Origin: Monoglobus pectinilyticus
GTDB taxonomy: Bacteria; Bacillota; Clostridia; Monoglobales; Monoglobaceae
Length of the DNA stretch: 64,000 nt
Direction of reading: 5' to 3'
Assembly (NCBI RefSeq): GCF_002874775.1
Contig: NZ_CP020991.1
Location: 310,001-374,000 of the forward strand
In this document: positions 6,741-51,302 of the stretch, piece by piece
Numbering within the stretch: the first letter of the stretch is position 1
Layout: every line of letters begins with the position of its first letter
The notes under the pieces: model-generated
Told to the model about the DNA's origin: nothing
The model's input: only the letters and a program-made list of their open reading frames with translations
The model's database searches: none
Made by a program: the position numbers and the translations under genes

Positions 6741-6743
6741 TTT

Positions 6744-11449: not shown

Positions 11450-11452
11450 CTG

Positions 11453-12655
11453 CTATTCCTTAATTTTATAATTACCTAAAAGCTTAAACTCACCTGTGCC
11501 TTCAATTACATTATTTGTAATTTGCCTTACCTTTTCATCTAAAAGATTCCCTGTATAATCAACAAAGAACATATACTCAAAATTTTTGTTATCAAGAGGT
11601 CTAGATTCAAGTTTTAATAAATTTAAATCTCCATGCGCAAAACATGCCAATACTCTATGTAACTCGCCGCTTTCGTGAGGAAGTGTAAAAGCCGCGCTGA
11701 TTTTATTGCACATTACGTCTATTTCTGAATTAACTGACACCACAATAAAACGGGTAGTATTTTTATCACTGTTATTTATATCTTCCGCTAAAATATCCAA
11801 ACCATATATCTCAGCATTCTGCTTACCCGCAATTGCCGCTTGAACCGGATTATTATCATTAGCAACTTTCTCTGCACTTTTAGCCGTGCTATAGTATTCA
11901 CGGCAAATAATATCATTGCCTAAAGTTTTTAAAAATCCACTGCTCTGCATTATCCCCTGTTCATGAGAATAGATATACTTTATATCTGAAACTTTCGAAC
12001 CTTTAACACCCATAAGACAATGTCTTATAGGTATATCAACTTCACCTATTATGAAATAACCATATTTTTCAAGCAGATCCATTACATCAACTATGGTACC
12101 GGTGTTAGAATTTTCAATAGGCAAAACAGCATAATCGGATTTATTATTCTTTAAGGATAAAAACGCTGCTTCAAACGAATCAGCATTAGTTCTGTTTGAT
12201 TCTGCTCCAAAATATTTTATTGCCGCTTCCTCGCTATATGAGCCTTTAACACCATAAAACACAATCCTGGGATTTTGAATATGCGGTTTAGGATTTAACA
12301 TATCCTCAATACGTTTTCTGCCTTTATCGCGGCTAAGTTCACGAGTCTGTCTATCACGACTTATTGACATTATAGCAGTAAAAAACTCATAAACTTCATT
12401 TTCCCGGCTTTTGTCTGTTAACAAATCCATTTTGCTTTTTAAAACTTGCTTTTCTCTTTCTGAATCAAGAACCGGCTTTCCTACACTTCGCTTGTAATCA
12501 GCAACACTGCTGCATAAATCCATTCTTTTTAAAAATAATGGCAGCAGCTCTTTGTCAATCTTATCAATCTCTTCTCTTAGTATGTCTAACCTATTTTTTT
12601 GGCTGCATGTATTATTTAATTCATTCAATTTTTGATTATCACTTTTAGTGTCCAT
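11453..12655 (-). CDS. pheA: Bifunctional chorismate mutase / prephenate dehydratase (P-protein)
   Basis: Makes phenylpyruvate from chorismate in two steps. Residues about 20-110 form the AroQ-class mutase (LREEIDKIDKELLPLFLKRM, then SVADYKRSVGKPVLD). Residues about 128-305 form the dehydratase, with GSYSEEAAIKYFG, LPIENSNTGTI and TRFIVV. The C-terminal ACT domain carries LPHESGELHRVL and LLKLESRP, the motifs that bind phenylalanine for feedback control. Fusion of mutase and dehydratase is common in proteobacteria and present in many Clostridia. Confidence 0.95.
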   Translation of the reverse strand: MDTKSDNQKLNELNNTCSQKNRLDILREEIDKIDKELLPLFLKRMDLCSSVADYKRSVGKPVLDSEREKQVLKSKMDLLTDKSRENEVYEFFTAIMSISRDRQTRELSRDKGRKRIEDMLNPKPHIQNPRIVFYGVKGSYSEEAAIKYFGAESNRTNADSFEAAFLSLKNNKSDYAVLPIENSNTGTIVDVMDLLEKYGYFIIGEVDIPIRHCLMGVKGSKVSDIKYIYSHEQGIMQSSGFLKTLGNDIICREYYSTAKSAEKVANDNNPVQAAIAGKQNAEIYGLDILAEDINNSDKNTTRFIVVSVNSEIDVMCNKISAAFTLPHESGELHRVLACFAHGDLNLLKLESRPLDNKNFEYMFFVDYTGNLLDEKVRQITNNVIEGTGEFKLLGNYKIKE

Positions 12656-31671: not shown

Positions 31672-31686
31672 TTCTAAATCAATTAA

Positions 31687-31803
31687 AATACTTCAGGGTT
31701 GGGTGCAATTCCCTACCGGTGGTTATAGCCCACGAGCTTATTTTTATAAGTTGATTTGGTGAAAATCCAAAGCCGACGGTAAAGTCCGGATGAAAGAAGT
31801 CTA
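31687..31803 (+). promoter_or_regulatory. FMN riboswitch (RFN element)
   Basis: The conserved RFN strings appear in order: AGGGTTGGGTGCAATTCCC, ACCGGTGGTTATAGCCCACGA, TGGTGAAAATCCA, CCGACGGTAAAGTCCGGATG and GAAAGAAGT. The P1 helix is closed by ACTTC and GAAGT. It is followed by an intrinsic terminator before ribU, so FMN binding should favour termination and shut off riboflavin uptake. Confidence 0.97.
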
Positions 31804-31870
31804 TATTGTATCGATTATTTAAATACTTGAATACTTATTTTAAGTATTATAATTTATTTTGGTACTATAA

Positions 31871-31939: not shown

Positions 31940-32587
31940 ATGACTAACGAAGCCGTAAAAAAGAAAAATTCATTTAAACCCAAAAGTGTTTTGTCAAAAC
32001 CAGTTATAACGACAAGAATGCTTGTTTCAATTGCTTTATGCAGTGCGATAGCATATGTGCTAATGCTAATTGAAATCGCAATACCTATTGTACCAAGTTT
32101 TGTAAAGTTTGATTTTTCAGACCTTCCGGCTCTCATTTGTGCCTTCACTTTCGGTCCGCTTGCCGGAGTATTTGTTGAATTGATTAAAAATCTTCTGCAT
32201 TTATTAACAACCCATACAATGGGTGTTGGAGAATTATCAAATTTTATTCTAGGCTGCTGTCTAGTTATACCCGCCGGCATTATTTACAAAAAAAACAGAA
32301 CTCGAAAAGGAGCTTTAATAGGCATGCTTGTCGGAACACTTTGTTTTGCGGCAATGGGATTTTTCTCTAACTACTTTATAGTTTTCCCGTTTTACATAAA
32401 TGCAATGGGTTTTCCTATGGATGCAATTATAGAAATGGGAACTAAAATCTCACCTATTCTTGACAGTGAACTAAAACTTATAGCTTTATGTATAACTCCA
32501 TATAATATTTTCAAAGGCGTTATTATATCAATATTAACATTTTTATTATACAAACGTCTTAAACCAATATTAAAAGGTAAGGCATAA
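31940..32587 (+). CDS. ribU: Riboflavin ECF transporter substrate-binding subunit RibU
   Basis: A 215-residue integral membrane S component with about six helices (MLVSIALCSAIAYVLMLIEIAIP, FSDLPALICAFTFGPLAGVFVELIKNLLHLL, LIGMLVGTLCFAAMGFFSNYF). The FDFSDLPAL and GVFVELIKNLLHL segments are characteristic of RibU. Control by an FMN riboswitch settles the substrate as riboflavin or a close relative. It has no linked EcfA/EcfT genes, so it presumably uses a shared (group II) energising module; the module at 38 kb carries its own fused S domain. Confidence 0.95.
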   Translation: MTNEAVKKKNSFKPKSVLSKPVITTRMLVSIALCSAIAYVLMLIEIAIPIVPSFVKFDFSDLPALICAFTFGPLAGVFVELIKNLLHLLTTHTMGVGELSNFILGCCLVIPAGIIYKKNRTRKGALIGMLVGTLCFAAMGFFSNYFIVFPFYINAMGFPMDAIIEMGTKISPILDSELKLIALCITPYNIFKGVIISILTFLLYKRLKPILKGKA

Positions 32588-32795: not shown

Positions 32796-34394
32796 TTAAA
32801 ACCATTCTGTTATATCAAAGAACAAGTTATTGCTATAATCCATAACAAAAACCTTATTTAAAATGTGCTCAAATCGTAAATCCTTTAAATTTCCGGATAT
32901 TTTATAACTTTCAACAAAGTTTGGATTATTAATTAATTCAATACAATGAGTTTTAAAAGACTTGCTCATTTCCCTATGAAGAAACTTTGGAAGTCTTGCG
33001 GTCTTGTTATTTTTAATAAAATCCACTGCCAATTCCTCAATAATGCAATCTCCAAAAATTTCATACAAAATCTCATAAAATGCTGTATTTGCCAACTTTC
33101 CTGCTTTTTCACTGCGTTTGGTTTTTTCGCCCAGCTGCTCAAATAAAGAATAAGGATTATTATCATAAGGCGGTTTTTCTGAAATACTTCTTATACTATT
33201 AAAGAATTTTCCGCTGTTATAAAACATATCCACAGCATTTTCAACTTTTTTTAATTTCAGAAGTTCTGACGCTGATATCCATTTTGTTGAAATCACTTCA
33301 TATGGAGGGAACTCTGCATATTTTATATCCGAAGTAAATCGTTCAGATACCTGTGTGCCTTTTAAGACTTTTAAAAATCCTAACTGCAACATGTCAGGAC
33401 TCATCGAATACACAAAATTAAAAGATTTAATAAAAGAATTATAATCTTCAAATGGCAATCCAGCTATCAAATCCAAATGAATATGTATATTTTTTGGCTC
33501 TGTCAAACGTCTTATATTATATCTTATTTTTTCTAAATCATAATTTCTGTTAACTGCTGTAAGAGCCTCGTGATTTATAGTCTGTACGCCAACCTCAATT
33601 TGAAACATATCTTTTGGAGCTGAATTCAAAACCGAAATCAGTTCATCAGTTAAAATACTTGCTTCTATTTCAAAGTGAACTTTGGTAGCAGTTGAATTTT
33701 CAATTATATAATTCACTATTTCTACTGCCCGTTTTGAATCACAATTAAAAGTTCTGTCTATCAATTTAACTAAAGGAACCTTTTTATCAAAGAAAAATTT
33801 AAATCCTTTTTTAACATATTCCATTGGAAAGTATCTTATCCCATTACTATCTGCCGACGACAGACAATATGCACATCTGAATGGACACCCTCTAGAGGTC
33901 TCGAAATACAATATTTTATTTTTAAGATTTTCTATATCCAAAGTTGTATACGGAAACTTCAGACTGTTTAAATCCACACATTCTCCTTGATAAAACCTAT
34001 TCGGTCGTTTTCCTTGCTGAATCAGTTCCAGCACTTTGCCAATTATTATTTCTCCTTCTCCTCTGATTATTGTATCAATAAAATTGTATTTCTTTAGAAG
34101 TTCATCAGAATTATAACCGCTTTCAGGGCCACCGAATATAATTACAATATTTGGCATAGCTTTTTTTATTAATTCCGCAGCTTTCAGAATTATCTCAATA
34201 TTCCAAATATAGCAAGAAAAGCAGTACACATCTGCACCGCTTTCCACTAATGCTGAATATATAGAACCAATACTGTCATTAATTGAAAATTCCATTAGTT
34301 CAGGATTAAATTTTATATTATATTTTTCTATATACCTTATTGCCAAAGATGAATGAGAATATCTGGCATTAACGGCAACAAAAACCGTCTTCAT
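32796..34394 (-). CDS. B12-binding-domain radical SAM protein (DUF4080 family)
   Basis: 532 residues. The N-terminal 140 residues form a cobalamin-binding-type Rossmann domain (MKTVFVAVNARYSHSSLAIRYIEKY, then IIFGGPESGYNSDELL) without the DxHxxG lower-ligand motif, as usual in this class. The radical SAM cluster motif is RGCPFRCAYC (CxxxCxxC), followed by the EIE and GLPFED barrel motifs. The C-terminal DUF4080 region runs to the end. Substrate and reaction are unknown. It overlaps the DUF896 gene upstream by 1 base. It is a likely B12 user in the same neighbourhood as the cobalamin-uptake candidates. Confidence 0.88.
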   Translation of the reverse strand: MKTVFVAVNARYSHSSLAIRYIEKYNIKFNPELMEFSINDSIGSIYSALVESGADVYCFSCYIWNIEIILKAAELIKKAMPNIVIIFGGPESGYNSDELLKKYNFIDTIIRGEGEIIIGKVLELIQQGKRPNRFYQGECVDLNSLKFPYTTLDIENLKNKILYFETSRGCPFRCAYCLSSADSNGIRYFPMEYVKKGFKFFFDKKVPLVKLIDRTFNCDSKRAVEIVNYIIENSTATKVHFEIEASILTDELISVLNSAPKDMFQIEVGVQTINHEALTAVNRNYDLEKIRYNIRRLTEPKNIHIHLDLIAGLPFEDYNSFIKSFNFVYSMSPDMLQLGFLKVLKGTQVSERFTSDIKYAEFPPYEVISTKWISASELLKLKKVENAVDMFYNSGKFFNSIRSISEKPPYDNNPYSLFEQLGEKTKRSEKAGKLANTAFYEILYEIFGDCIIEELAVDFIKNNKTARLPKFLHREMSKSFKTHCIELINNPNFVESYKISGNLKDLRFEHILNKVFVMDYSNNLFFDITEWF

Positions 34395-34613: not shown

Positions 34614-35600
34614 TTATTCAGAGAAACCGTTAGGATTTTCTTTATGCCATTTCCATGCAGTTTCGATTATTGTACCTAAATCATTATACTTCGGTTTCCA
34701 ATTCAGTTCTTTTTTTGCTTTTTCAGAACTAGCAACCAGTATAGCCGGGTCACCCGGTCTCCGTTCTCCAAGTTCAGCCTTTATATCCACACCGGTAACC
34801 TTTCTAGTTATATCTACAACTTCTTTTACAGAAAATCCGTTTCCGTTTCCAAGATTATAAATATTAGATTTTCCATCGGCTCTCATCTTATCAAGAGCAA
34901 GAATATGAGCGTCTGCCAAATCAGTAACGTGAATATAATCGCGTACACAGGTTCCATCTTCGGTATTATAATCATCGCCGAATATTGTAATACTATCTCT
35001 TTGTCCAAGTGCAGCCTGAAGAATAATAGGAATCAAGTGCGTCTCAGGATTATGGTCTTCACCTATTTTTCCGCTTATATGTGCGCCGGCAGCATTAAAA
35101 TAGCGCAGTGCAGTGTATTTTATATCATATGCTTCATAACACCACTTAAGAGCCTTCTCGACGGCCAATTTAGTTTGTCCGTAAGGATTAGTAGGAATAG
35201 TTGGGTCAGTTTCCATAATTGGTATATTCTGCGGCTCACCATAAGTTGCAGCAGTAGATGAGAATACAATTTTATCCACACCATACTGTTTCATTTTACT
35301 AAGCAGACTCAAAGTTGACACAACATTATTATTATAATATTTAAGCGGGTCCTCAACGCTTTCGCCTACCAAAGAATCGGCCGCAAACTGAATGACTGAA
35401 TCAATTGTATTTTCCGAAAAAACCTTATCTAAAAAATCGCTGTCACGCAAATCACCTATCATTAATTTGCCGCCTAAAACAGCTTTTTTATGACCTTTTT
35501 GAAGATTGTCAGCAACAACAACGTCCTCGCCTCTATCAAGAAGTTCTGAAACAGTATGGCTGCCAATATATCCTGCTCCTCCGCATACTAAAACTGACAT
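34614..35600 (-). CDS. galE: UDP-glucose 4-epimerase
   Basis: Interconverts UDP-glucose and UDP-galactose (or the GlcNAc forms). The NAD-binding start VCGGAGYIGSHTVSELL, the catalytic Ser/Tyr/Lys set (SSTAATYGEP and NPYGQTKLAVEK) and YFNAAGA are clear. 328 residues is normal. The ATG is preceded by GGAGGAGATATT. Being first in this unit, it may provide sugar nucleotide for the surface polymers whose other genes are in the window. Confidence 0.94.
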   Translation of the reverse strand: MSVLVCGGAGYIGSHTVSELLDRGEDVVVADNLQKGHKKAVLGGKLMIGDLRDSDFLDKVFSENTIDSVIQFAADSLVGESVEDPLKYYNNNVVSTLSLLSKMKQYGVDKIVFSSTAATYGEPQNIPIMETDPTIPTNPYGQTKLAVEKALKWCYEAYDIKYTALRYFNAAGAHISGKIGEDHNPETHLIPIILQAALGQRDSITIFGDDYNTEDGTCVRDYIHVTDLADAHILALDKMRADGKSNIYNLGNGNGFSVKEVVDITRKVTGVDIKAELGERRPGDPAILVASSEKAKKELNWKPKYNDLGTIIETAWKWHKENPNGFSE

Positions 35601-35722
35601 AATATCTCCTCCATTATTAGTATATATTCTAACTTACATATAAACCTATTTACAAATATGGCTATAGTTTATAACAAATAAAATTGCTTGTCAACAGATA
35701 ATTAAATATTGTAATGCTATTG

Positions 35723-35751
35723 TTGACATTAATCGCTAAAAATGATAATAT
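35723..35751 (+). promoter_or_regulatory. Strong promoter of the transcobalamin-like/ECF operon
   Basis: Perfect TTGACA (35723-35728), 17-base spacer, TATAAT-like TAATAT (35746-35751) with an extended -10 TG (35743-35744). It is 46 bases before the first ATG. No cobalamin aptamer lies in the short leader, unlike the facing minus-strand gene. Confidence 0.8.
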
Positions 35752-35797
35752 AAACATTATTAAACTATCGTATTATCTATAACTTTGAGGTATTTTT

Positions 35798-36817
35798 ATG
35801 GTTAATAAAAAAAATGATTTTAATACAATAAATTTGATACAAACACTGATGAAACCTCTGTTTATGTTTATCATACTATTTATATTTGCACACTCATCCG
35901 TTTATGCTTCAGATGATAGTCAAAAAATTGAGGAGACAGCAAGATATGTTCTTTCTCAAGCGACTATACCAACAATATCATCTACATCTGGTGAATGGGC
36001 TGTTATTGGAATATCACATTCAGGTCTGAATGTCCCCGATTCATACTTTGACAGTTATAATGCCAGAGTCTCAAATATTTTGGATGAAAAAAACGGAAAT
36101 TTAGGACGAAAATATACCGAATATTCCAGAATAGCCATTGCGTTAAATTCAATTGGAGCTCCAACCAGCAATATTGGTGAAAAACGATTTAATTTATTTT
36201 CATATATTAATGATTATGATAAAGTAATTCTACAAGGTATAAACGGACCTATATTTGCTCTCACCGCTAAGGTATTATGCGGCGACAGCGATATAGAAAC
36301 AGCTCAAAAATACAAAGAATTTATTTTAAATCATCAAAATTCTGACGGTTCTTTCGGTCTTTCTCAAAATATGCCTGACACTGATATTACGGCAATGGCA
36401 ATCAGTGCATTGTCTCTGTGTAACGATAGTCAAGAAATAGACAATGCTATCAACAAAGCTTTCTTGTATTTGTCTTCAATACAGAAAAATGACGGCAGTT
36501 TTACTGCAAATCCTAATGAGTCAGAAGGAAACAGCGAAAGTATCTCTCAAGTTATAATAGCTATGAAAAGATATGGACTTTCGCCTCATGACAGTTTTTT
36601 TACAAAAAATGGATATACACCATATGACGCACTTGATAGTTATAGAATAAGCGGAGGCGGATATCTTCATTTAAAAAGTGATGCCGACGCAAATCAAATT
36701 GCCAGCGAACAGGCACTTCTCGCATTGACTGAGGTGCAAAAGCCAGCTAATATGTTAATCTATGACCGAATATGGTTTGACGCTAATGTAAAATATTTAG
36801 AGAGTATTACAAAATAA
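35798..36817 (+). CDS. Secreted alpha6-barrel (terpenoid-cyclase/prenyltransferase-repeat) protein, transcobalamin alpha-like
   Basis: 339 residues with an N-terminal signal segment (LFMFIILFIFAHSSVYA, about 26-42). The rest is made of helical repeats with the QNSDGSFG / QKNDGSFT turn characteristic of prenyltransferase and squalene-oxidase repeat folds, plus a C-terminal GGGYLHLKSDADANQIASEQALLAL block close to the one that ends the barrel of the riboswitch-controlled SLH protein. The same toroidal fold forms the alpha domain of animal transcobalamin and intrinsic factor. No enzymatic DXDD motif is seen. It is first in an operon with a DUF4430 lipoprotein and an ECF transporter, so I infer a substrate-capture role with cobalamin the leading guess. 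Confidence 0.75.
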   Translation: MVNKKNDFNTINLIQTLMKPLFMFIILFIFAHSSVYASDDSQKIEETARYVLSQATIPTISSTSGEWAVIGISHSGLNVPDSYFDSYNARVSNILDEKNGNLGRKYTEYSRIAIALNSIGAPTSNIGEKRFNLFSYINDYDKVILQGINGPIFALTAKVLCGDSDIETAQKYKEFILNHQNSDGSFGLSQNMPDTDITAMAISALSLCNDSQEIDNAINKAFLYLSSIQKNDGSFTANPNESEGNSESISQVIIAMKRYGLSPHDSFFTKNGYTPYDALDSYRISGGGYLHLKSDADANQIASEQALLALTEVQKPANMLIYDRIWFDANVKYLESITK

Positions 36818-36837
36818 CTATAAAAAAGGACATTTAA

Positions 36838-37710
36838 ATGAAAGTTAAAAAATCAGCTAAAATTTTAAATATTAGTATTTTAATTATATTGTGTATAATT
36901 CTGTTCTCAGGCTGCTCAACTAAAGACATCTCTAAGTCAAATTTATATGATAATATAAATAATGATTCTTATTCAATATCTTCAGAAAATAAAAGTTACA
37001 ATAAAGATGAGGGGGGTGCTGTAAGCAGTCACAGTTTCAACAGCAGTAAAAATACAGATTTGTCAGAAGAAAATAGTAATTCTGATACAAATAATCAACA
37101 AAGCAATACCAAAATTCCCTCCGAAGATATGAGTTCCAATTCTGAACAGAATGTTATGCCCGAACAAAACGGTACATCTAATACTTCAAACTCACCTGCA
37201 AATGACAATCATGAAAACCTCGATACATCAAGTCAGAACACCATAAATAATGAAAGCCAAACAACACAACAGATACCTGATACACAAAATAATCCGTCAT
37301 CAACTGAAAATGAAGGTTCTGATAGCTCTAACTATTGTTCATTTATTGTCGACTGCAATAAAGCTTTTGAATCCACAGAATTATCACAAAGCTTAAGAGA
37401 TGTGCTTCCTAAGGACGGAATAATATATTCAGGAAATCCGAAATTTAATCAGGGTGAAAGTGTTTTTGACCTGTTAAAACGTCTCATGAAAGAAAATGGT
37501 ATACCTTTAGAGTTTTCCTCATCTCCTGCTTATGGTTCCAAATATATAGAAGGAATAAACTCATTACACGAATTTGACTGCGGCGAATTATCAGGATGGA
37601 CATATTTTGTAAACGGCAGCCGCCCAAGTTATGGATGTGATAAATATATAATAAGACCCGGTGATGACATACGCTGGTATTATACATGCAATCTCGGCAA
37701 TGATATTTGA
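36838..37710 (+). CDS. DUF4430 (transcobalamin beta-like) lipoprotein
   Basis: 290 residues. A lipoprotein signal ends at LFSGC (Cys26), so it is anchored to the outer face of the membrane. Residues 27 to about 165 are a low-complexity Asn/Ser/Gln/Glu-rich tether. The last 120 residues form a DUF4430 domain: a VFDLLKRLMKENG helix, YGSKYIEGINSLHEFDCGELSGWTYFVNG and PSYGCDKYIIRPGDDIRWYY, the pattern of the transcobalamin beta domain. It follows the alpha6-barrel gene by 20 bases and precedes ecfT, which suggests it presents substrate to the transporter. Ligand is inferred, not shown. Confidence 0.8.
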   Translation: MKVKKSAKILNISILIILCIILFSGCSTKDISKSNLYDNINNDSYSISSENKSYNKDEGGAVSSHSFNSSKNTDLSEENSNSDTNNQQSNTKIPSEDMSSNSEQNVMPEQNGTSNTSNSPANDNHENLDTSSQNTINNESQTTQQIPDTQNNPSSTENEGSDSSNYCSFIVDCNKAFESTELSQSLRDVLPKDGIIYSGNPKFNQGESVFDLLKRLMKENGIPLEFSSSPAYGSKYIEGINSLHEFDCGELSGWTYFVNGSRPSYGCDKYIIRPGDDIRWYYTCNLGNDI

Positions 37711-37819
37711 TAAAACTATTCGAAGTTTTATTATTCACTTTTTGCAGATAAAAGAAGAGTAATCAACCGTTTAATAATTTGCGGCATTCTAGTTTAGTTA
37801 TAATTAATGGAGGATATAT

Positions 37820-38707
37820 ATGAAAGATGAATTCTCACGTTTTCACCCAACAATAAATTTTATATACTTTGCAGCAGTAATAACATTTTCAACTATCTAT
37901 ATGAATCCAATACTACTTTCAATATCATTCATTTCAGGACTTATATACTCAATCTATTTAGACGGACGCAAATCATTTCGTTTTAATTTGCTTACTATTT
38001 TACCAATTTCTATATTTGCCGCCTTAGTAAATATTGCATTCAATCATAATGGAATGACAATATTATGCTATCTTCCAACAGGAAATCCTGTAACGTTGGA
38101 ATCTATAATTTATGGAATATGCGCTGCTGTACTTTTATCAAATATAATTATTTGGTTTTTTTGTTTTAGCCGGATTATAACATCAGATAAATTTATCTAT
38201 CTTTTTGGAAAAATAATCCCCTCACTTTCTCTGGTATTATCTATGATTATAAGGTTTATCCCTCTTTTTAAACACCAGTATCAAGCAGTGTCAACGGCTC
38301 AAAAAACATTGACATACAACAATAAAAACAATAAAATTACATCAAAAATAAAACATTCTCTCAATATATTTTCAATAATGCTGACATGGTCATTAGAAAA
38401 TTCTATTATTACAGCCGATTCAATGAATTCTAGAGGATATGGTTTGAAGGGCAGAACGGCATTTTCAAACTATAAATTTTATTTTAGAGACGGTATAGCG
38501 CTGATAATATTGGCAGCGCTTATTATAACATTAATTTTTCTAACACATGGAGGATATGCTAATATTACATTCTACCCTTTCTATGAATTAAATATTACCG
38601 GAATTGGAATAGTGGGTTATATTATTTATGCAGTTTTATGTATTTTACCAATGATTATTAACATAACGGAGGACATGAAATGGAATTATTTTCGGTCAAA
38701 GATTTAA
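37820..38707 (+). CDS. ecfT: ECF transporter transmembrane (T) component
   Basis: 295-residue membrane protein with five to six helices and the two cytoplasmic coupling helices. The second carries SMNSRGYGLKGR, the conserved Ser/Ala-Arg-Gly motif that docks on the ATPases. The ATG follows GGAGG. It overlaps the next gene by 28 bases, so translation is coupled. Its dedicated neighbours make it a group-I-like module rather than the shared one. Confidence 0.9.
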   Translation: MKDEFSRFHPTINFIYFAAVITFSTIYMNPILLSISFISGLIYSIYLDGRKSFRFNLLTILPISIFAALVNIAFNHNGMTILCYLPTGNPVTLESIIYGICAAVLLSNIIIWFFCFSRIITSDKFIYLFGKIIPSLSLVLSMIIRFIPLFKHQYQAVSTAQKTLTYNNKNNKITSKIKHSLNIFSIMLTWSLENSIITADSMNSRGYGLKGRTAFSNYKFYFRDGIALIILAALIITLIFLTHGGYANITFYPFYELNITGIGIVGYIIYAVLCILPMIINITEDMKWNYFRSKI

Positions 38708-41100
38708 ACTTTTCATATACAAATAACAGAAATAATTTCGCCCTGAAAGACGTAAGTTTCAAAATTAACAGCGGTGAATTTATAACTCTGTGCGGTAAAT
38801 CAGGCTGTGGAAAAACAAGTCTTTTAAGACAGTTAAAAACAACCTTGTCTCCAAGCGGATTTAGATCAGGCAGTATAAAATACTGCGGTAATGAACTTGA
38901 AAAAACAGACAGTTGGGTTCAAGCATCGGAAATTGGCTTTGTAATGCAAAAAGCAGAAAGCCAAATAGTTACCGACAAAGTATGGCACGAAATGGCTTTC
39001 GGACTTGAAAGTTTGGGGTATGACACAGACGAGATAAGGTTAAGAGTCTCAGAAATGGCAAGTTTCTTTGGTCTGCAATCATGGTTTTATAAAGACACAA
39101 ACACCCTTTCCGGTGGTCAAAAACAACTGCTTAGTCTTGCGTCAGTAATGGTATTAGAACCAAAAATACTTATCTTAGACGAACCAACAGCCCAGCTTGA
39201 CCCAATATCTGCGGGTGATTTTATGCAGATGCTGCTTAAAATCAACTGTGAGTTCGGAACAGCTATACTTGTTTCAGCGCATAATCTTGAGGAAGTCGTA
39301 CCTATTTCTGACAGAATAATTGTCATGGAAAACGGCAGGATAATAGCCGATAACGAACCCCGATCCGTCATACTTAATTTAAGAAACACGCAAAATGAAA
39401 TGTTCTCCGCTATGCCGTCACCGGCTCAAATTTACGCCAGTGTTGACAGAGGCTGTAACTGCCCTCTTACAGTAAGAGAAGGCAGAGATTGGATAAGCAC
39501 ATATGTACAGGGAAAGGAAATAAAACCTGTACCAGTTAAAAAAATTGGTTACAAAGAATCTGAAACGGTTTTGAAGGCCAAAAATATATGGTTTAGATAT
39601 GAAAAACGTGATAATGATATTTTAAAAAATATTTCTCTTTCACTGCACAGCGGTGAATGGCAATCGCTTGTTGGAAGCACCGGGGTTGGAAAGACAACGT
39701 TTTTGTCTATCTTGTCAGGAACAAAATCCCCATATAGAGGAAATGTTGATACAATGGGCAACAGGGTCTGCCTTCTGCCTCAAGATCCCACAACTATATT
39801 CGAAAAAGATACTGTTATGGCTGATTTGGTGCAAGATATAAGTCAAAAAGACGAATCATATCTTCAAAATATTATTAATCTTTGCGACCTTTCTGAATTA
39901 CTATACATGCACCCATATGATTTATCAGGAGGTGAACAACAGCGCGCAGCTTTAGCCAAAGTATTACTGAAACGTCCTCGCATACTGCTTCTTGATGAGC
40001 CGACAAAAGGACTTGACGCTTTATTTAAGAAAAAGTTGGCAGGAATACTCCTGAACTTAAAGATACGAGGAATTTCTATCATTATGGTATCTCATGATAT
40101 TGAATTTTGCGCCCAATATTCTGATAACTGTGCATTTCTGTTTGACGGAGAAATTATTTCTAAAGATGAACCTCGTGCATTTTTTTCAGGAAACAATTTT
40201 TACACAACATCTGCTAACAGAATTGCCAGACATATAATTCCCAATGCTATAACCACCGATGATGTTATATATGCTATAGGAGGTTCGCCTGTCATAACCA
40301 AAAGTTCACCCAAACATAATAGTCGTGATTCCGCCCTGCCCCCTCTTCTTACACCGGTGAAAACAAATATAATAACTGACAAAGGATCAAAAGGTTCGGT
40401 ATTTTTCTCAGTATTATCCTTATTATTAATACCGTTATGTATATTTTTAGGAATGAAATTTATACATGAAAGACCATATTATTATATAAGCATTGCAATT
40501 ATACTGCTTTCGATAATCCCATTTATTGTTATGTTTGAAGGCCGAAAACCACAGGCGCGTGAACTTGTTACTATAGCAGTACTTTGTACTATAGGTGTTA
40601 TTGGAAAAATTGCATTCTATATGATTCCTCAGTTTAAGCCAACAGTTGCTATTATAATTATTTCCGCAATGGCTCTTGGTTCTCAGCGAGGCTTTCTGAT
40701 TGGAGTAATAACCGCCTTCGTATCAAACATATTTTTAGGACAGGGCCCCTGGACGCCATGGCAAATGTTTGCCTGCGGTCTTATTGGTTTCATATCCGGA
40801 TTTATGTATAAAAAAGAGGCACTGCCAAAAACGACAGTGCCAATATGTATATTTGGATTTTTAATAACTCTGTTAATATATGGCGGGATTATGAATCCCG
40901 CGGCTTTAATAATGGCCAATGATACAATATCTATGTCCACTCTTGCCGCTTATTATATATCAGGAATCCCATATGACATTATACATGCGGCTTCAACTGT
41001 TATATTTTTAATAGTTTTAGCAAAACCTATGCTTACCAAACTTGATAGAGTTAAGAAAAAATACGGTCTTCTCCTCAAAGGCAGAAATTCATATAACTAA
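38680..41100 (+). CDS. Single-chain ECF transporter: two ATPase domains fused to an S component (cobalamin-type candidate)
   Basis: 806 residues. ABC domain 1: Walker A GKSGCGKT (39-46), signature LSGGQKQ (143-149), Walker B ILILDEP (163-169). ABC domain 2: Walker A GSTGVGKT (332-339), LSGGEQQR (415-422), ILLLDEP (435-441). After a linker, residues about 573-806 form a polytopic S-component domain (ARELVTIAVLCTIGVIGKIAFYMIPQ, FLGQGPWTPWQMFACGLIGFISGF), which to my eye resembles cobalamin-type ECF S proteins (CbrT-like). Linked A-A' proteins are known, for example YkoD, but adding S on the same chain is unusual. ATG 38680 has GGAGG 7 bases upstream. The stop overlaps the convergent gene's stop by 4 bases. 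Confidence 0.88.
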   Translation: MELFSVKDLNFSYTNNRNNFALKDVSFKINSGEFITLCGKSGCGKTSLLRQLKTTLSPSGFRSGSIKYCGNELEKTDSWVQASEIGFVMQKAESQIVTDKVWHEMAFGLESLGYDTDEIRLRVSEMASFFGLQSWFYKDTNTLSGGQKQLLSLASVMVLEPKILILDEPTAQLDPISAGDFMQMLLKINCEFGTAILVSAHNLEEVVPISDRIIVMENGRIIADNEPRSVILNLRNTQNEMFSAMPSPAQIYASVDRGCNCPLTVREGRDWISTYVQGKEIKPVPVKKIGYKESETVLKAKNIWFRYEKRDNDILKNISLSLHSGEWQSLVGSTGVGKTTFLSILSGTKSPYRGNVDTMGNRVCLLPQDPTTIFEKDTVMADLVQDISQKDESYLQNIINLCDLSELLYMHPYDLSGGEQQRAALAKVLLKRPRILLLDEPTKGLDALFKKKLAGILLNLKIRGISIIMVSHDIEFCAQYSDNCAFLFDGEIISKDEPRAFFSGNNFYTTSANRIARHIIPNAITTDDVIYAIGGSPVITKSSPKHNSRDSALPPLLTPVKTNIITDKGSKGSVFFSVLSLLLIPLCIFLGMKFIHERPYYYISIAIILLSIIPFIVMFEGRKPQARELVTIAVLCTIGVIGKIAFYMIPQFKPTVAIIIISAMALGSQRGFLIGVITAFVSNIFLGQGPWTPWQMFACGLIGFISGFMYKKEALPKTTVPICIFGFLITLLIYGGIMNPAALIMANDTISMSTLAAYYISGIPYDIIHAASTVIFLIVLAKPMLTKLDRVKKKYGLLLKGRNSYN

Positions 41101-44100
41101 TTATTAAACTCATCTTTAAAGAAACATAATGCAGTCATTTTGGAAACTTCTGATCTGGCTGCATTTTCTTTTGGGGCAAACCGTCTACCTTCCATACCAT
41201 TTATAATCCCAGCCTCTTTAAGATGTTTAACGCTATTTTTCGCATATCCGTCTATCTCAATATAATCACTAAATTCATCTGCCAAATTCATTTCAGATTC
41301 TGTTCCTAAAGATTTACCATATAACATTTCATAAAATCTGTCTAGGATTACACAGATATCTTCACGAGTTATAAAATTATTCGGTCTAAATTCTCCATTT
41401 TCAAAACCATTTATTAGACCATTTGCCGAAGCCCAATTAACATTATCAAAATACCAGTCACTTTTATTGACATCATTGAATATCAATGAGTCGCCCTCAT
41501 CCGATTGAATATTGTTTTCTGCATTCCAAATTCTTGAAAGCACAGACACAAATTCTGCTCTTGTCATTGGAGCTTCTGGCCTAAAAGCGCCATCGTTATC
41601 ACCAAGCAATATTTTTTTCTCTGATAAAACTTTTATATACCTATATGCCCAATAATCTTTTGAAACGTCAGAATAAATAAAACTCTCTTCTGTCGGCTTA
41701 TCCGGTGTTGCTTCAGGACTAGCTGTTATATCCGGTGAACTGATAATCCCAGGCTCAGAACTTATCCCTGAACCATTTGAACCTGCGCTGCTCTCATTTT
41801 CCAAAGTATAGTCATCAGTATAATATAACTTTACAGCATCACCATTTTTAAGTTTATAAGAATCCATTCCAACACTTGGGCTTTTCTCATTTACAGTATA
41901 TAACCAACCACTGTTTTTACCATTAGTATATTCTCCGATTGTTATGCCGCTTGGCGAAGTTATTGAAGAAATATACCCAGAGTCCAATCCCTTTGCAGTA
42001 TAACCATTCTCACTTAGAACTGTCATAATGACGCTTAAAGCTGTATCGTTTGAAGAAACAGTCTTTTTGACAGGAAATATCCATGTAGGATATGAACCGG
42101 TATGCTTTCCATCTCCATGAGCAGTATCACCAATAACTGATACTGTTACCGTAATAGATGTCGTTCCGCCCCCTGTACTGCCTCCGCTGTTCCCGGAACT
42201 ACTGCCGGAACTTGACGAGTTTTTAATCGGTTTTATATCATAGATATTATATGCTCCATAACTATCTAAGCCAACATATGATATCAGTGCTCTAAATCCC
42301 TGTTCAGTTGCTAACTTATTTAATTCTGAATTATCTATATATCCAAATCCGCTGTTATCCTCCAGAGTATATGAAAGCAATCCCGAAATCAAGCTGTTAC
42401 CATTTTTTATAAATCTAGAATCATTTAATGAATTAATTCCCAAAGAAGATAATCCAGTTATTACCATAGCATCAGTATTTGATGAACCTAAACTTCCGCT
42501 TGATAATTGTTTTTCAGATAATATATTTACTATTTTGTCTACAGCCGTCTTTATTTGACTATGTGTCTTTGTATCTATTCCTACACTTTCTGCTGAATTT
42601 GCTAAATAATACTTAGAAAGTGCATTTAATACCATAGCTGAAGAATCATAATCCGGATAATTCATGCCTTCCCAGGTATATCCCCACACACCATCAGAAT
42701 TTCTGCTCGTAAGTATATATTCTATTAAAGCCTCACGGGTTAGATTTCCGTTAACAGTGTAGTCTCCTGAATCATATAGAAGCATTGCAAAAACCGCATC
42801 AGTTATATATGTAATATCAGAAATATTATAGCTTGATATTTTATCTATTAAATCAAATACTTCACCATCTGAACTCTTAAGTTTTTTTATATCTGTGCCT
42901 ATAGACTTTAATGCAAAGCCATCCTTTGCTAATGTTCCAATGGATTGAGAAGTAAAAGCGTCATCTATAATCAATTGCTTAGCTTCAGACTTGTTTTTAA
43001 GTTTCGAAGAATAACCTCCGCAAACCATATCAAATATAGACCAAGCTTCTGTTGTTTCAGTATATAAAGATGATATGTTACTCATCAAAAGCTTTATTTC
43101 TTTATTTATAACAGTATCAGGAACTGACGATGAAGTCGGAAGTGGTGACGCGCTTTCAATATTTGAAGTTTCTGTTGGGGCAGGGGTAAAAGTTTCTTCA
43201 TAAGGTACATCCGTCGGTAACGGAGATGCGCTTACAACAACTGGTGCTTCAGTTGGAGACGGCGAAGCCGTTTCGGCATTTTCTTCCTCTACGGTTACCT
43301 CACACCACGGCAAAACAATATATGTAAAATCATCAGAATAACTCTCTGCAGAAATAAAATATTTTCCCGGAGTTTCAAAAGATAATGTAAAGTTTCCATT
43401 ATTATCTGTTACTATTCCGGTGTCCTTTAAGTCATATTTATCAGTACCTGATAATATTTTTATATCCGATATCGCCTCTGTATTTGCTTCAATAGTTTCC
43501 TGCGGATAACAACCAAAGAATGAAACATACCCACTGAGATTCAAATTAACTTCCTGATTAGGAGCAGCAGTTACATTAGTTTTATCAAACCATGAGAATA
43601 CGTCACTCCAAAATGACTTGTCCTGATACAAAAATATTCTGACATCATCATTGTCTTTCAAATATGACTTATCAGCAGTATAGCCAGTATATGAACCATA
43701 CAAAGGATTTATAACACCATCATTCGGCTGGACGCCATTCACAAAAAAAGATGACGCCGAAGCATCCACGCCTAAGATTTTGGTAATAAACCCGCTGTTA
43801 ATATCTAAATAATCTTTTGCGGTATTTACAGTAAACCCATCAGACAGCAATATTTTGTGAACAGCGATCAAAGCATCCAAAATGCTTACTTGACCGTCGT
43901 CTTCATTTTCATAACCGTATTGATACGCTAAATCAGATGAAACTGTGAGAGTTTCCGGAGCAAAATAAAATTCATCACCGGAAAGTGAAATAGTAACCGT
44001 CTTTTCCTGATTTCCCGATGCAAAAACTGCACCGCTCATAACAGATACACAGATTATAACAGCAAGAAAAACTGAAATAAGCCGGCGTACAAAATTTTGT

Positions 44101-44123
44101 TGTTGATAGTCTAGATTTTTCAT
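41097..44123 (-). CDS. SLH-anchored transcobalamin-like protein under cobalamin riboswitch control
   Basis: 1008 residues. Signal peptide 1-35 (VFLAVIICVSVMSGAVFA). DUF4430-like domain about 41-168. Beta-sandwich about 185-278. Pro/Ser/Thr linker 283-336. Helical alpha6-barrel about 338-625 with terpenoid-cyclase-like turns (NSDGVWGY, DNSGFGYI). Gly/Ser linker. Second DUF4430 domain 656-770, with NSGWLYTVNEKSPSVGMDSYKLKNGDAVKLYY. Three SLH repeats (about 814-865, 879-932, 946-1000). The barrel followed by DUF4430 is the domain order of transcobalamin and intrinsic factor. ATG 44123 has GGAGG 6 bases upstream; a longer frame to 44183 enters the leader. B12 repression makes a corrinoid-binding surface role likely. 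The alternative is a general surface adhesin. Confidence 0.85.
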   Translation of the reverse strand: MKNLDYQQQNFVRRLISVFLAVIICVSVMSGAVFASGNQEKTVTISLSGDEFYFAPETLTVSSDLAYQYGYENEDDGQVSILDALIAVHKILLSDGFTVNTAKDYLDINSGFITKILGVDASASSFFVNGVQPNDGVINPLYGSYTGYTADKSYLKDNDDVRIFLYQDKSFWSDVFSWFDKTNVTAAPNQEVNLNLSGYVSFFGCYPQETIEANTEAISDIKILSGTDKYDLKDTGIVTDNNGNFTLSFETPGKYFISAESYSDDFTYIVLPWCEVTVEEENAETASPSPTEAPVVVSASPLPTDVPYEETFTPAPTETSNIESASPLPTSSSVPDTVINKEIKLLMSNISSLYTETTEAWSIFDMVCGGYSSKLKNKSEAKQLIIDDAFTSQSIGTLAKDGFALKSIGTDIKKLKSSDGEVFDLIDKISSYNISDITYITDAVFAMLLYDSGDYTVNGNLTREALIEYILTSRNSDGVWGYTWEGMNYPDYDSSAMVLNALSKYYLANSAESVGIDTKTHSQIKTAVDKIVNILSEKQLSSGSLGSSNTDAMVITGLSSLGINSLNDSRFIKNGNSLISGLLSYTLEDNSGFGYIDNSELNKLATEQGFRALISYVGLDSYGAYNIYDIKPIKNSSSSGSSSGNSGGSTGGGTTSITVTVSVIGDTAHGDGKHTGSYPTWIFPVKKTVSSNDTALSVIMTVLSENGYTAKGLDSGYISSITSPSGITIGEYTNGKNSGWLYTVNEKSPSVGMDSYKLKNGDAVKLYYTDDYTLENESSAGSNGSGISSEPGIISSPDITASPEATPDKPTEESFIYSDVSKDYWAYRYIKVLSEKKILLGDNDGAFRPEAPMTRAEFVSVLSRIWNAENNIQSDEGDSLIFNDVNKSDWYFDNVNWASANGLINGFENGEFRPNNFITREDICVILDRFYEMLYGKSLGTESEMNLADEFSDYIEIDGYAKNSVKHLKEAGIINGMEGRRFAPKENAARSEVSKMTALCFFKDEFNN

Positions 44124-44170
44124 AAAATCCCTCCATAAAATAAAAATGCCTGTACAAGGTAAATGTATAG

Positions 44171-44203
44171 ACACAAAAAACACAGTGCGCTATGCAATGT
44201 GCC
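44171..44203 (-). terminator. Expression-platform terminator of the cobalamin riboswitch
   Basis: Minus-strand hairpin GCACAT-TGC/GCA-CTGTG (loop ATAGC, one mismatch) followed by TTTTTT, about 45 bases after the aptamer and about 50 before the ATG. Its position fits transcriptional control by cobalamin. Confidence 0.7.
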
Positions 44204-44237
44204 TTTGCCAAATCCAATACCCCTGTGGACCACAAAA

Positions 44238-44404
44238 CACAGATAAAGGCAGGTCTTCCGACTTAGCTTCAGCATATTTGGCACCTTCCCAAGAAAACTC
44301 AGTGGTATAAGCCAAACACTCGGCGTCACGGCAGCAAGGTCTGTTTGAGAATTTCACTCATATTCCCTATTATCGCTGAAATCAGCGCACCTCTATCTCT
44401 ATTC
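44238..44404 (-). promoter_or_regulatory. Cobalamin (B12) riboswitch
   Basis: Read on the minus strand, the class I B12 motifs occur in order: AGGTGC near the 5' end, AATAGGGAATATGAGTGAAA, CAGACCTTGCTGCCGTGA, TACCACTGAG, GGGAAGGTGCCAA, AAGTCGGAAGACCTGCC. The P1 helix pairs AGATAG with TTATCT. It begins only about 17 bases after the mntR-family stop codon, and controls the SLH protein downstream. With cobalamin bound, the following terminator should form and repress the gene. Confidence 0.96.
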
Positions 44405-44420
44405 ATTTGTAAATTAACTT

Positions 44421-44798
44421 CTAAGAATTTTGTTCTAAAGTTCTGACAAACTCTTTCAGCTTATCAAAACTTTCTTCACTGATGACATGTTCAATCCTGC
44501 ATGCATCAGTAAGAGCGGTTTCTTCAGATACTCCAATCTTCATCAAATACTTGCTCAAAAATCTATGGCGTTCATAGATTTTCTCTGCAATTGCCCTGCC
44601 TGATGGGAGCAAATCAATATATCCATGAACGTCCACAGATATATAACCGCTTTCTTTAAGTGATTTGACAGCACGGCTTATACTTGGCTTAGTATATCCG
44701 GTCTCAGTAACTATGTCAATAGACCGAACTTTATCTCCTTTATTTGATAACACCAATATAGTTTCAAGATAATTTTCAGCCGACTCCATTATTTTCAT
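44421..44798 (-). CDS. DtxR/MntR-family metal-dependent transcriptional regulator
   Basis: About 125 residues: a winged helix at the N-terminus (MKIMESAENYLETILVLSNKG, then SIDIVTETGYTKPSISRAVKSLKESGYI) and a dimerisation/metal-binding region with RHRFLSKYLMKIGV, DACRIEHVISEESFDKL. It has no SH3-like third domain, as in MntR and other short members. ATG 44798 has GAGGTG 6 bases upstream. A clear promoter is upstream, and the cobalamin riboswitch begins just after its stop, so read-through into the SLH gene is possible. Whether it senses Mn or Fe cannot be told from the sequence. Confidence 0.88.
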   Translation of the reverse strand: MKIMESAENYLETILVLSNKGDKVRSIDIVTETGYTKPSISRAVKSLKESGYISVDVHGYIDLLPSGRAIAEKIYERHRFLSKYLMKIGVSEETALTDACRIEHVISEESFDKLKEFVRTLEQNS

Positions 44799-44837
44799 CC
44801 GTACCACCTCACTTAATTTACATATATTTTCTATATA

Positions 44838-44866
44838 ATTTTATCATAGTGCCAAAAGATTGTCAA
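44838..44866 (-). promoter_or_regulatory. Promoter of the DtxR/MntR-family gene
   Basis: Minus-strand TTGACA (44861-44866), 17-base spacer, TAAAAT (44838-44843) with an upstream TG. I see no separate promoter between this gene and the riboswitch, so it may also drive the SLH transcript. Confidence 0.7.
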
Positions 44867-44967
44867 GATTTATCAAAAATACCGTTCAATATTTAATTGA
44901 TAAATTTTTTTATGAAATATGAATATATCATCCAACATTAAAAAAACTTTAAAAATCAGTAAACCGA

Positions 44968-44996
44968 TTGACAAAAATAGTTTGGTATATTATGAT
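44968..44996 (+). promoter_or_regulatory. Promoter of the gtrA-family gene
   Basis: TTGACA (44968-44973), 17-base spacer, TATGAT (44991-44996), about 47 bases before the ATG. It is divergent from the regulator gene. Confidence 0.7.
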
Positions 44997-45042
44997 AAGT
45001 AATAGTAATTTTGCGTGTTAACTATATAAAAGGAGAGGGAAA

Positions 45043-45531
45043 ATGATTAATAAACTTAAAGAACTCTATAAAAAATATGAGGAAGTTATTCTATATTTAT
45101 TTTTCGGAGTTTTAACAACTATTATTTCAGTTGGTCTCTACTGGCTTCTTGGGGTAATGTTTGACTATATTGCCGCAACATCAGGCAACAGCGGATTAAC
45201 TCTTCAAAATAACGGTTTTATCAACTCTTCATGCGTTGTATTTAAAAATATTATAGCAATTTTGTTTGCATATATAACAAACAGAATATTTGTTTTTAAA
45301 AGTAAAATCTCCGGGTTTAAAGCTATAACTTTAGAAATGCTCAGTTTTTTTGCAGCAAGGTTGGCAACTATGGTATTTGAGGTTATTTTTATGTTTGTAA
45401 CAGTAAATGTATTTGCTCTTCAACCATTATTAATGAACATAATTGCACAGTTTGTTATAGTAGTTCTTAACTATGTTTTCAGCAAACTTTGGATATTCAA
45501 AAAGGAAGACTCTGCAGAAAAAACTAAATAG
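45043..45531 (+). CDS. GtrA-family membrane protein
   Basis: 162 residues, four membrane helices (VILYLFFGVLTTIISVGLYWLL, NIIAILFAYITNRIFVF, FFAARLATMVFEVIFMFVTV, IIAQFVIVVLNYVFSKLWIF). The NRIFVFKSK and VLNYVFSKLWIF strings are the GtrA signature. Members are thought to flip or pass undecaprenyl-phosphate-linked sugars to the outer face of the membrane. The ATG follows AGGAGAGGG. It could supply lipid-linked sugar to the GT-C enzymes elsewhere in the window, but no direct linkage is seen. Confidence 0.9.
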   Translation: MINKLKELYKKYEEVILYLFFGVLTTIISVGLYWLLGVMFDYIAATSGNSGLTLQNNGFINSSCVVFKNIIAILFAYITNRIFVFKSKISGFKAITLEMLSFFAARLATMVFEVIFMFVTVNVFALQPLLMNIIAQFVIVVLNYVFSKLWIFKKEDSAEKTK

Positions 45532-48548: not shown

Positions 48549-48584
48549 GAAGTATAATAATTTCAATTTTTAGGAGTGGACAAT

Positions 48585-51302
48585 ATGAAGATTAAAAGAT
48601 TGCTTGCCGGACTCACTGCAGCGTGTATGATTACTGCAATAACTCCGGTCTTCGCGAAAAATGATTTAACTCTCTATGACGGACAAGTTTCTGTTGAGGC
48701 AGCAACAAAAAACGGACTTCTTGCCTTTCCAGGCGCTGAGGGCGGCGGAAAATACACAACCGGTGCTAGAGGAGTCGAAAACCCTGAAATTTACCATGTC
48801 ACCAACTTAAATGAAAATGGTGCCGGTTCTTTTGCTGACGCAGTCTCTCAGCCTGGAAGAATTATTGTTTTTGATGTAAGCGGCACTATAAATTTAAGCA
48901 ACACATTAAATATACCTAGCAACAACTTAACTATACTTGGTCAAACCGCCCCGGGCGACGGAATAACTTTTGCAGGTTCTGATCTCCTCTTATCCCACGG
49001 TGTTTCAAACGTTATTTTGAGATATCTTAAAATTCGTCCTACTGATGACAATGAGGGTGAACCCGACGGCTTGGGCGGAAGATGGAACCATGATATAATT
49101 ATAGACCACTGCAGTGTTAGCTGGAGCGTGGACGAAATGCTGACTTTATATGCCGGCTCCAGTGAAAAAACTGAGTATACCCCGTCAACCAACATAACTA
49201 TGCAAAATACAATTGGTGCCGAAAGTTTAAGAATGTCTGACCATTTTAAGGGCGCTCATGGATACGGAGCAATTTGGGGCGGCGGTCTTGCAAGCTATCA
49301 TCACAATTTGCTTGCTCATCATGACAGCCGAAGTCCAAGAATGGATAGAGAGCTTGTATCTACAGATGTTAGGAATAATATAATTTATGACTGGGGCACT
49401 ACAAATTCAGCCTACGGTGCCGAACCATATTCTTATAATTATATTAAATCTTTGGATAATCCTGAAAAATATCCTATTGTTTCTAAGAATCCATCAAACG
49501 TAAATTGGGTTAATAACTATTATAAATTTGGCCCCGGCACAAAAGAAAATTTAAGAAGCCGAATTTATGATATATCAAATGATATTCCTGAAATAACAAA
49601 AGCAAATTTCTTTATTAATGGAAATTATGTAACCGGCAATGACGAAGTTACATCTGATAACTGGAAAGGGATAAATTTCCCAGAAAAAGCTGAAAAATTA
49701 TCATCTCCTGTTAATATGGATATTTATGATATAAAAACTCAAACTGCACAAGAAGCATATGAGCAAGTTCTCGCTGAATCAGGCGCAACGCTGCCGAAAC
49801 GTGATAGTATAGATGCAAGAGTGGTTGCTGATGTAAAAAATGGAACGGGACGAATAATAAATAATGCAAACGAAGTTGGCGGTATTATTAAAACTGAAAA
49901 TATTAGCCGTGTGTTTGAGATACCAAGTGATTGGAAAACTTCAAACAATATGGGAACAGCCAAAGAAACCGATATTATTAAAAGTGGAAAATGGACCGGT
50001 TATACCTGGATTGAGGCATATGTAAATGATTGGACTGAAAAACAGCCAAATCCTGAAAATCCTGACATTATAGTTACTGAACCCGCTATACAATCTCTAA
50101 GTGATGAGATTAACGGGCATAAAATAGAAAATGGAAACTGGGCTGTTTTATTTGACAACGAACAATTAAGTTATAAAGCTATAGGTCTCCCTCCCAAAAA
50201 CTCTGATACCAGTGTTGTAAAAATGGAACTCTATGACGGTGCAGAATTAATTAAGACATATGACAATTCTGCAGAAATAAACGATTCAATCTCTCTTGCT
50301 CCAGGAATACATTATTTGAGTTCTAAAGCATATAATAATAAAAATGAATCAACACAAAGTCCTACGTCAATTGTATACGTTAAATCTTCCTCTGATTTCG
50401 GAACCTTTGAACATACGCAAATTGGAAAGCCTTCTTTTGACGGAAAGGGCGGCTCTTCAATGGATATTGATGGAACCTATACAATAAGCGGAAGCGGACT
50501 TATTGGCGGTACAGAAGATTCATGTGATTTTATGTATAAACAGGTTACAGGTGACTTTGATATAACGGCTAAAATTGTTGACATACCAAAATATGAGAAT
50601 GGTCAAATAAGCGGTTTAATGTTACGTGAAAGCTTAGACAACGGTTCAAAAATGGCAATGCTGGCAGACGGATGGTTAAAATATGGCGAAAACGTAAGAG
50701 CAGTTTATCGTGCTGGTGAAAATCAAAACGCTGAAACTTCGTTTTTTAAAAAGGCTGACGGTTCGGTTCTTGATAATGCAGGTTCTTATGATACATCTAA
50801 AGAAGAATGCAGAGTTCCACAATATATGAGAATGCAGAGAACTGGAAACACGATAACATTATCCGTTTCAGATGACGGAAAAGATTGGACGAATAATCCA
50901 AGACAGCCACAGTCGATAGAAATTCCAGGATTATCTGATACTATATATGTTGGTATTGCTACTGATTCAATCCAAGGCGTTCCTGTAAAAGACTATTTTT
51001 CACAGGCTAAGTACAGCAATATAATTTTAAATGGAAATACGGACGCATTGAATGAACTTTATTATTTAAACAATCCTGTTATAAATGGTAATAATGTTAA
51101 AGCCAGTATCATAAATAAGGGAGAGACTGCATTTTTTATTGCCGCGTCATATGATAAAAACGGTAATGTTTTAGATGCCGAACTCAGAGAAGTAAAAGGG
51201 CAAGAATCCCCGACAGAAATAAATATAACACTTTCACCTGATAATGGAACTGTTAAAGCATTTTTATGGTCAAATAATTTTGAAACTTGCATAATGAAAT
51301 AA
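48585..51302 (+). CDS. Secreted pectate lyase with C-terminal carbohydrate-binding-like domains
   Basis: 905 residues. Signal peptide about 1-25 (LLAGLTAACMITAITPVFA). The catalytic beta-helix (about 45-400) opens with LLAFPGAEGGGKYTTGARG, then VYHVTNLNENGAGSFADAV-like and SGTINL, LTILGQTAPGDGI and IDHCSVSWSVDE, close to PL1-type pectate lyases. The middle is a beta-sandwich (about 520-605). The C-terminal 200 residues resemble a DUF1349/laminin-type jelly roll (VTGDFDITAKIV, ISGLMLRESLDNGSKM), often carbohydrate-binding. It lacks SLH repeats, so it is released or held by other means. ATG 48585 has AGGAG 8 bases upstream. Confidence 0.88.
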   Translation: MKIKRLLAGLTAACMITAITPVFAKNDLTLYDGQVSVEAATKNGLLAFPGAEGGGKYTTGARGVENPEIYHVTNLNENGAGSFADAVSQPGRIIVFDVSGTINLSNTLNIPSNNLTILGQTAPGDGITFAGSDLLLSHGVSNVILRYLKIRPTDDNEGEPDGLGGRWNHDIIIDHCSVSWSVDEMLTLYAGSSEKTEYTPSTNITMQNTIGAESLRMSDHFKGAHGYGAIWGGGLASYHHNLLAHHDSRSPRMDRELVSTDVRNNIIYDWGTTNSAYGAEPYSYNYIKSLDNPEKYPIVSKNPSNVNWVNNYYKFGPGTKENLRSRIYDISNDIPEITKANFFINGNYVTGNDEVTSDNWKGINFPEKAEKLSSPVNMDIYDIKTQTAQEAYEQVLAESGATLPKRDSIDARVVADVKNGTGRIINNANEVGGIIKTENISRVFEIPSDWKTSNNMGTAKETDIIKSGKWTGYTWIEAYVNDWTEKQPNPENPDIIVTEPAIQSLSDEINGHKIENGNWAVLFDNEQLSYKAIGLPPKNSDTSVVKMELYDGAELIKTYDNSAEINDSISLAPGIHYLSSKAYNNKNESTQSPTSIVYVKSSSDFGTFEHTQIGKPSFDGKGGSSMDIDGTYTISGSGLIGGTEDSCDFMYKQVTGDFDITAKIVDIPKYENGQISGLMLRESLDNGSKMAMLADGWLKYGENVRAVYRAGENQNAETSFFKKADGSVLDNAGSYDTSKEECRVPQYMRMQRTGNTITLSVSDDGKDWTNNPRQPQSIEIPGLSDTIYVGIATDSIQGVPVKDYFSQAKYSNIILNGNTDALNELYYLNNPVINGNNVKASIINKGETAFFIAASYDKNGNVLDAELREVKGQESPTEINITLSPDNGTVKAFLWSNNFETCIMK

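Follow-up and report, generated by a model that had tools for sequence, protein, structure and literature searches.

The 64,000-nucleotide stretch of the Monoglobus pectinilyticus genome considered here (contig NZ_CP020991.1, positions 310,001 to 374,000; hereafter the window, whose numbering is used below) encodes a 1008-residue secreted protein that very probably captures corrinoids at the cell wall. An earlier reading of the sequence alone, hereafter the original prediction, had proposed this role, and the proposal is supported by a two-domain structural match to the mammalian B12 carriers, by linkage to a cobalamin riboswitch, and by a neighboring operon that encodes an energy-coupling factor (ECF) importer with a CbrT-type S component. 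The operon, at 35798-41100 on the plus strand, was overlooked in the original prediction; it converges on the gene for the surface protein and overlaps its stop codon by 4 nt.

A surface protein with the predicted fold of B12 carriers

The open reading frame (ORF) of the surface protein spans 41097-44183 on the minus strand, and its best start is the ATG at 44123. Its architecture (Table 1) agrees with what had been read from the letters, i.e., a DUF4430-type beta domain, a beta-sandwich, a helical barrel, a second DUF4430 domain, and three S-layer homology (SLH) repeats, the N-terminal beta domain being a divergent copy. The whole protein scores 55.9 bits against PF14478 (gathering score 23.8), with a match at residues 698-769 (E 6.1e-15); the N-terminal beta domain alone reaches 14.7 bits, under the same gathering score. 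PF00395 is matched in three stretches (E 2.4e-36). Against Pfam, the barrel gave nothing above cut-off, the best E values being 0.029 and 0.074.

As suggested in the original prediction, the structure of the barrel and DUF4430 fragment was predicted and compared with solved structures. Among 350,542 PDB chains, the 15 best matches to this ligand-free model (pTM 0.68) were mammalian B12 carriers; these chains stem from 12 PDB entries, all 12 of which align over both the barrel and the beta domain, with an rmsd of 5.2-6.1 A across the two. The DUF4430 domain was also matched by 5np4, the human transcobalamin beta domain (E 1.5e-3, TMt 0.75). The claimed likeness to the animal carriers is thus borne out at the level of predicted structure: as in transcobalamin, intrinsic factor, and haptocorrin, an alpha/alpha barrel is followed within one chain by a beta-grasp domain. 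Unlike these carriers, the Monoglobus protein is bacterial, has a further beta domain at its N-terminus as well as an Ig-like domain and wall-anchoring SLH repeats, and has no detectable sequence match to transcobalamin at E up to 10. Taken on its own, the barrel matches terpene cyclases, epimerases, and glycosidases in structure comparison, and a terpene cyclase or complement-type domain is what the sequence profile search favors; the structural match over two domains, together with the context, speaks for a B12 carrier instead.

Riboswitch linkage and its recurrence in relatives

The cobalamin riboswitch claimed in the original prediction is confirmed by a full-length RF00174 match (model 1-189) above the gathering score, located 107 nt ahead of the start codon. 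It is the only such match found in the single-contig genome (2,757,678 bases); its score, its sole occurrence, and its recurrence in relatives rule out a chance hit. Within the window, the riboswitch precedes the SLH gene only, and no second one was found for the ECF operon in 35000-45200 at E up to 5. A gene for a DtxR/MntR-like regulator (44421-44807, minus strand) ends about 11 nt before the aptamer on the same strand.

The terminator proposed alongside the riboswitch stood only in part. A hairpin followed by six U is present about 27 nt past the aptamer, but it is imperfect, has a fold z of -0.65, and is absent from the terminator-scan list, so that a strong terminator is not supported in the window. 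Among 29 related loci, the aptamer is followed by a strong hairpin and U-run (-12 kcal/mol or better) in 18, by a weak hairpin in 6, and by none found in 5, in a search made without a shuffled control. Because of these hairpins, and because cobalamin riboswitches are described in a review as OFF switches (PMC11477304), transcriptional OFF control of the SLH gene is likely, its direction being taken from the relatives and the review.

The genome search suggested in the original prediction gave a clear association. A sample of 196 genomes from the class included 90 with PF14478, and RF00174 was searched in these 90 as a first set of 30 (29 matched) and a second set of 60 (47 matched), the latter with stricter filters. 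Six rows below the gathering score, three per set, were dropped; one of them (in G004) has a DUF4430 domain a short way downstream. The linkage counts rest on 150 listed DUF4430 matches, which represent 79 of the 90 genomes, and all hold among these matches. At least 63 of 146 cobalamin riboswitches have a DUF4430 domain within 6.5 kb downstream on the same strand, compared with about 0.4 expected for random placing in 2.4-Mb genomes; within 6.5 kb upstream, on either strand, the count is at least 8 of 146. The link is found in 53 of 79 genomes and in 61 of 107 DUF4430 clusters, and where a genome has exactly one riboswitch, it lies at a DUF4430 gene in at least 30 of 46 cases. The remaining unlinked cases may be due in part to fragmented assemblies and to DUF4430 matches beyond those listed. 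One genome (G097, e.g., locus L069) has eight DUF4430 matches, some in frames as long as 3296 aa, along with eight RF00174 rows, which suggests paralogous binders of corrinoids or other ligands.

Gene content was compared in 40 loci picked for their DUF4430 clusters, to which the following counts apply. An EcfT homolog is present in 25, EcfA in 32 (a count that may take in unrelated ABC ATPases), an S component in 26, and a barrel homolog in 31; EcfT, EcfA, and S occur together in 23. The usual order is one or more large surface proteins, a barrel (often with SLH repeats), a small DUF4430 protein, EcfT, EcfA-A', and S, with many variations. When seven named loci were scanned for RNA families, cobalamin riboswitches were found in six, namely those of Clostridium magnum, C. 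ljungdahlii, Anaerovorax sp., Emergencia timonensis, Candidatus Roslinia, and a Peptococcaceae metagenome-assembled genome (MAG). The seventh, locus L075 of a Monoglobus MAG, carries on one strand (4149-11983, plus) a barrel gene, a DUF4430 gene, EcfT, EcfA-A'-S, a regulator-like gene, and a barrel-DUF4430-SLH gene, with about 115 nt ahead of the last; no cobalamin riboswitch was found there at E up to 5. The gene set is therefore conserved in the genus Monoglobus and the riboswitch is not universal, a point that weighs against corrinoid capture and slightly lowers our confidence in it. The small gene immediately 5' of the SLH gene in L075 (9275-9652) is similar to the DtxR/MntR-like gene of the window.

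The adjoining ECF operon and a probable need for B12

The operon begins with genes for a secreted barrel protein, homologs of which adjoin ECF genes in relatives, and a DUF4430 lipoprotein (Table 1). When its S segment was compared with solved chains, the sole significant match was 6fnp_A (E 3.8e-14; next E 0.15), and a 17-sequence profile of homologous S domains gave the same chain (E 2.7e-21), followed by 4hzu_S (E 0.0078). The 6FNP entry is ECF-CbrT of Lactobacillus delbrueckii, which transports cobalamin and cobinamide (PMC5997447); judging from its length of 182 residues and its label 'Membrane protein', chain 6fnp_A would be CbrT itself. By sequence comparison, then, the S component of the operon is homologous to CbrT and stands alongside EcfT and two EcfA ATPases. 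In contrast to the L. delbrueckii system, where cbrT sits in an nrdJ-cbrS-cbrT-pduO cluster (PMC5997447), a single chain joins the Monoglobus S domain to both ATPases, and extracellular putative binding proteins accompany it.

Four related loci (L051, L057, L058, and L060) encode a single barrel and DUF4430 chain inside or beside the ECF cluster, and in other relatives the two are separate genes. Such a Rosetta-stone pattern points to joint action of the barrel and DUF4430 proteins where they are separate. The alpha and beta domains of human transcobalamin, once separated, assemble only upon addition of cobalamin (PMC5599065). Among 28 small DUF4430 proteins examined at the N-terminus, a lipobox-like motif was found by simple pattern in six (L054 being doubtful), and in most others the N-terminus is hydrophobic and, judged by eye, resembles a membrane anchor.

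Gene searches point to a need for imported B12. The genome encodes a MetH-like protein with S-methyl_trans, Pterin_bind, and both B12-binding domains, and has no match to MetE (PF01717) or to the adenosyltransferase families PF01923 and PF02572 (a third type, EutT, was not searched). A BtuC-type importer (FecCD) appeared below cut-off only. No B12-type CobB/CobQ amidotransferase was found with PF07685, the sole corrin-synthesis family searched: the one match above cut-off adjoins MurT and was rejected as evidence of B12 synthesis, being most likely the protein that we take to be GatD, and a second match lies below cut-off. Because MetH is present and these other functions were not convincingly found, the organism probably takes up external B12 to make methionine. 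If the riboswitch is of the adenosylcobalamin type, the missing adenosyltransferase families lack an explanation. Encoded 1.4 kb from the operon is a B12-binding radical-SAM protein with DUF4080 (32796-34394, minus strand); the genome gave only one other PF02310 match.

Table 1. Features of the surface protein gene, its leader, and the convergent operon (window coordinates)
Feature	Position	Strand	Basis
Gene for 1008-aa secreted, SLH-anchored, transcobalamin-like protein	41097..44123	-	ORF, translation, Pfam
Signal peptide, residues 1-36	44016..44123	-	Hydrophobic stretch ending ...GAVFASG, judged by eye
N-terminal divergent transcobalamin-type beta (beta-grasp) domain, residues 38-166	43626..44012	-	
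Ig-like beta-sandwich, residues about 172-281	43281..43610	-	
Alpha/alpha barrel (transcobalamin alpha-domain-like), residues 335-623	42255..43121	-	Model pLDDT 88.7; Foldseek, VIA-align
C-terminal DUF4430 beta domain, residues 655-771	41811..42161	-	PF14478 and model
Three SLH repeats, cell-wall anchor, residues about 810-1008 (outer limits estimated)	41100..41696	-	PF00395
Cobalamin riboswitch aptamer (RF00174)	44231..44409	-	Covariance model, 93.7 bits, E 5.3e-22
Imperfect terminator-like hairpin and six U	44175..44203	-	Read from sequence and fold
Secreted alpha/alpha barrel protein, 339 aa, first operon gene	35798..36817	+	PF00432 E 3.7e-7; signal peptide by eye
DUF4430 lipoprotein, 290 aa, lipobox-like LFSGC	36838..37710	+	PF14478 E 4.6e-19 at 206-283
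EcfT/CbiQ-type membrane protein	37820..38707	+	PF02361 E 7.7e-7
Fused EcfA-EcfA'-S component, S domain CbrT-like	38680..41100	+	Two ABC ATPase stretches; S match 6fnp_A

Two further features of the window lie outside this system. An ordinary FMN riboswitch (117.5 bits; 31685-31805, plus strand) stands upstream of 31940-32587 (plus strand), which probably encodes an ECF riboflavin S component, a name given from context. At 48576-51302 (plus strand), a large secreted ORF carries the motif AFPGAEGGGKY, which we take to be typical of pectate lyases.

Alternative readings, prior work, and implications

Corrinoids in the gut are diverse, and it is possible, if rather unlikely, that the SLH protein takes a corrinoid precursor or another cobamide (e.g., cobinamide or pseudo-B12) instead of B12 itself. 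Cobinamide is also accepted by CbrT and human haptocorrin (PMC5997447, PMC5599065); its salvage, on the other hand, requires a lower-ligand assembly pathway, and such a ligand would refine corrinoid capture more than truly rival it. A role in storing B12 at the wall or in acting as a competing sink for it, with the adjoining operon importing alone, is improbable. It would fit the M. pectinilyticus genome, where the SLH gene and the ECF operon are separate and convergent and only the former has a riboswitch, as well as two genomes of the same genus, where the two DUF4430 genes are separated by about 20 kb (G016) or fall on different contigs (G051). However, genes for the surface protein, barrel, DUF4430 protein, and ECF components are consecutive on one strand in, e.g., L040, L044, L050, L055, L056, and L100, and in L075 the SLH gene reads in the same direction as the ECF set. 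An enzymatic or carbohydrate-binding barrel, in a protein belonging to an SLH-anchored polysaccharide set and with an incidental riboswitch link, is very improbable: the enzyme-like matches of the isolated barrel, the other SLH proteins near homologs in relatives, and the pectate-lyase-like ORF nearby are set against a two-domain match that ranks B12 carriers above all else, a riboswitch link in most of the genomes represented, and a CbrT-type neighbor operon.

The general idea is already a prediction of 2007. Burroughs et al. defined the SLBB superfamily and described bacterial SLBB-toroid fusions, cell-wall anchors, and operons that include CbiO/CbiQ and often another SLBB protein; they predicted a role in scavenging B12 and suggested a transfer to animals (PMC1796856). 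Like those proteins, the Monoglobus protein is a secreted Gram-positive toroid with a DUF4430/SLBB-type domain, and its locus likewise combines CbiO/CbiQ-like genes with a second SLBB-type protein. The main text of that paper, which predates CbrT, lacks the words 'riboswitch' and 's-layer'; the present analysis appears to go further by adding the riboswitch linkage, the CbrT identification, the structural match of the predicted model over two domains, the combination of an SLH anchor and two beta domains, and the barrel and beta proteins as a split pair. The DUF4430 domain of vertebrate carriers has also been noted (PMC4350170). The original prediction knew of no characterized Firmicute protein of this kind: no experimental study of a Gram-positive barrel and DUF4430 protein was found among titles and abstract starts, a search in which most subscription papers lay outside coverage, but the kind itself had been predicted (PMC1796856). 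In Bacteroides, BtuG and BtuH are surface proteins that bind B12 (PMC6143338, PMC8941943), BtuG being a surface lipoprotein that partners BtuB (PMC6143338). The likeness of the Monoglobus protein to these is an analogy of role only. BtuG is a beta-propeller, and we take both folds to be unrelated to that of the Monoglobus protein.

In the scheme that we propose for corrinoid capture, low intracellular cobalamin would let transcription of the SLH gene proceed past the riboswitch, and the exported protein would be tethered at the wall via its SLH repeats. The corrinoid would then move inward to two products of the adjoining operon, the secreted barrel protein and the DUF4430 lipoprotein anchored in the membrane, which may form a split alpha/beta carrier above the CbrT-type importer. 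The cell would need such capture because MetH is its only methionine synthase found, with neither a BtuC-type importer above cut-off nor a B12-type CobB/CobQ. Tentatively, and with rather less than even confidence, this may extend to a relay in Clostridia in which a wall alpha-beta clamp, usually riboswitch-controlled, passes its ligand to a split transcobalamin (a secreted or wall-bound barrel and a membrane-anchored beta domain assembling around the ligand) and on to a CbrT-type ECF importer; the animal carriers may descend from such proteins.

These findings offer a concrete, testable answer to how Gram-positive gut bacteria may capture B12, namely with DUF4430/barrel proteins and CbrT-type ECF importers that are often riboswitch-linked. 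They bear on microbe-host competition for B12, the host carriers appearing to share the same fold, and on the proposal that transcobalamin originated in bacteria.
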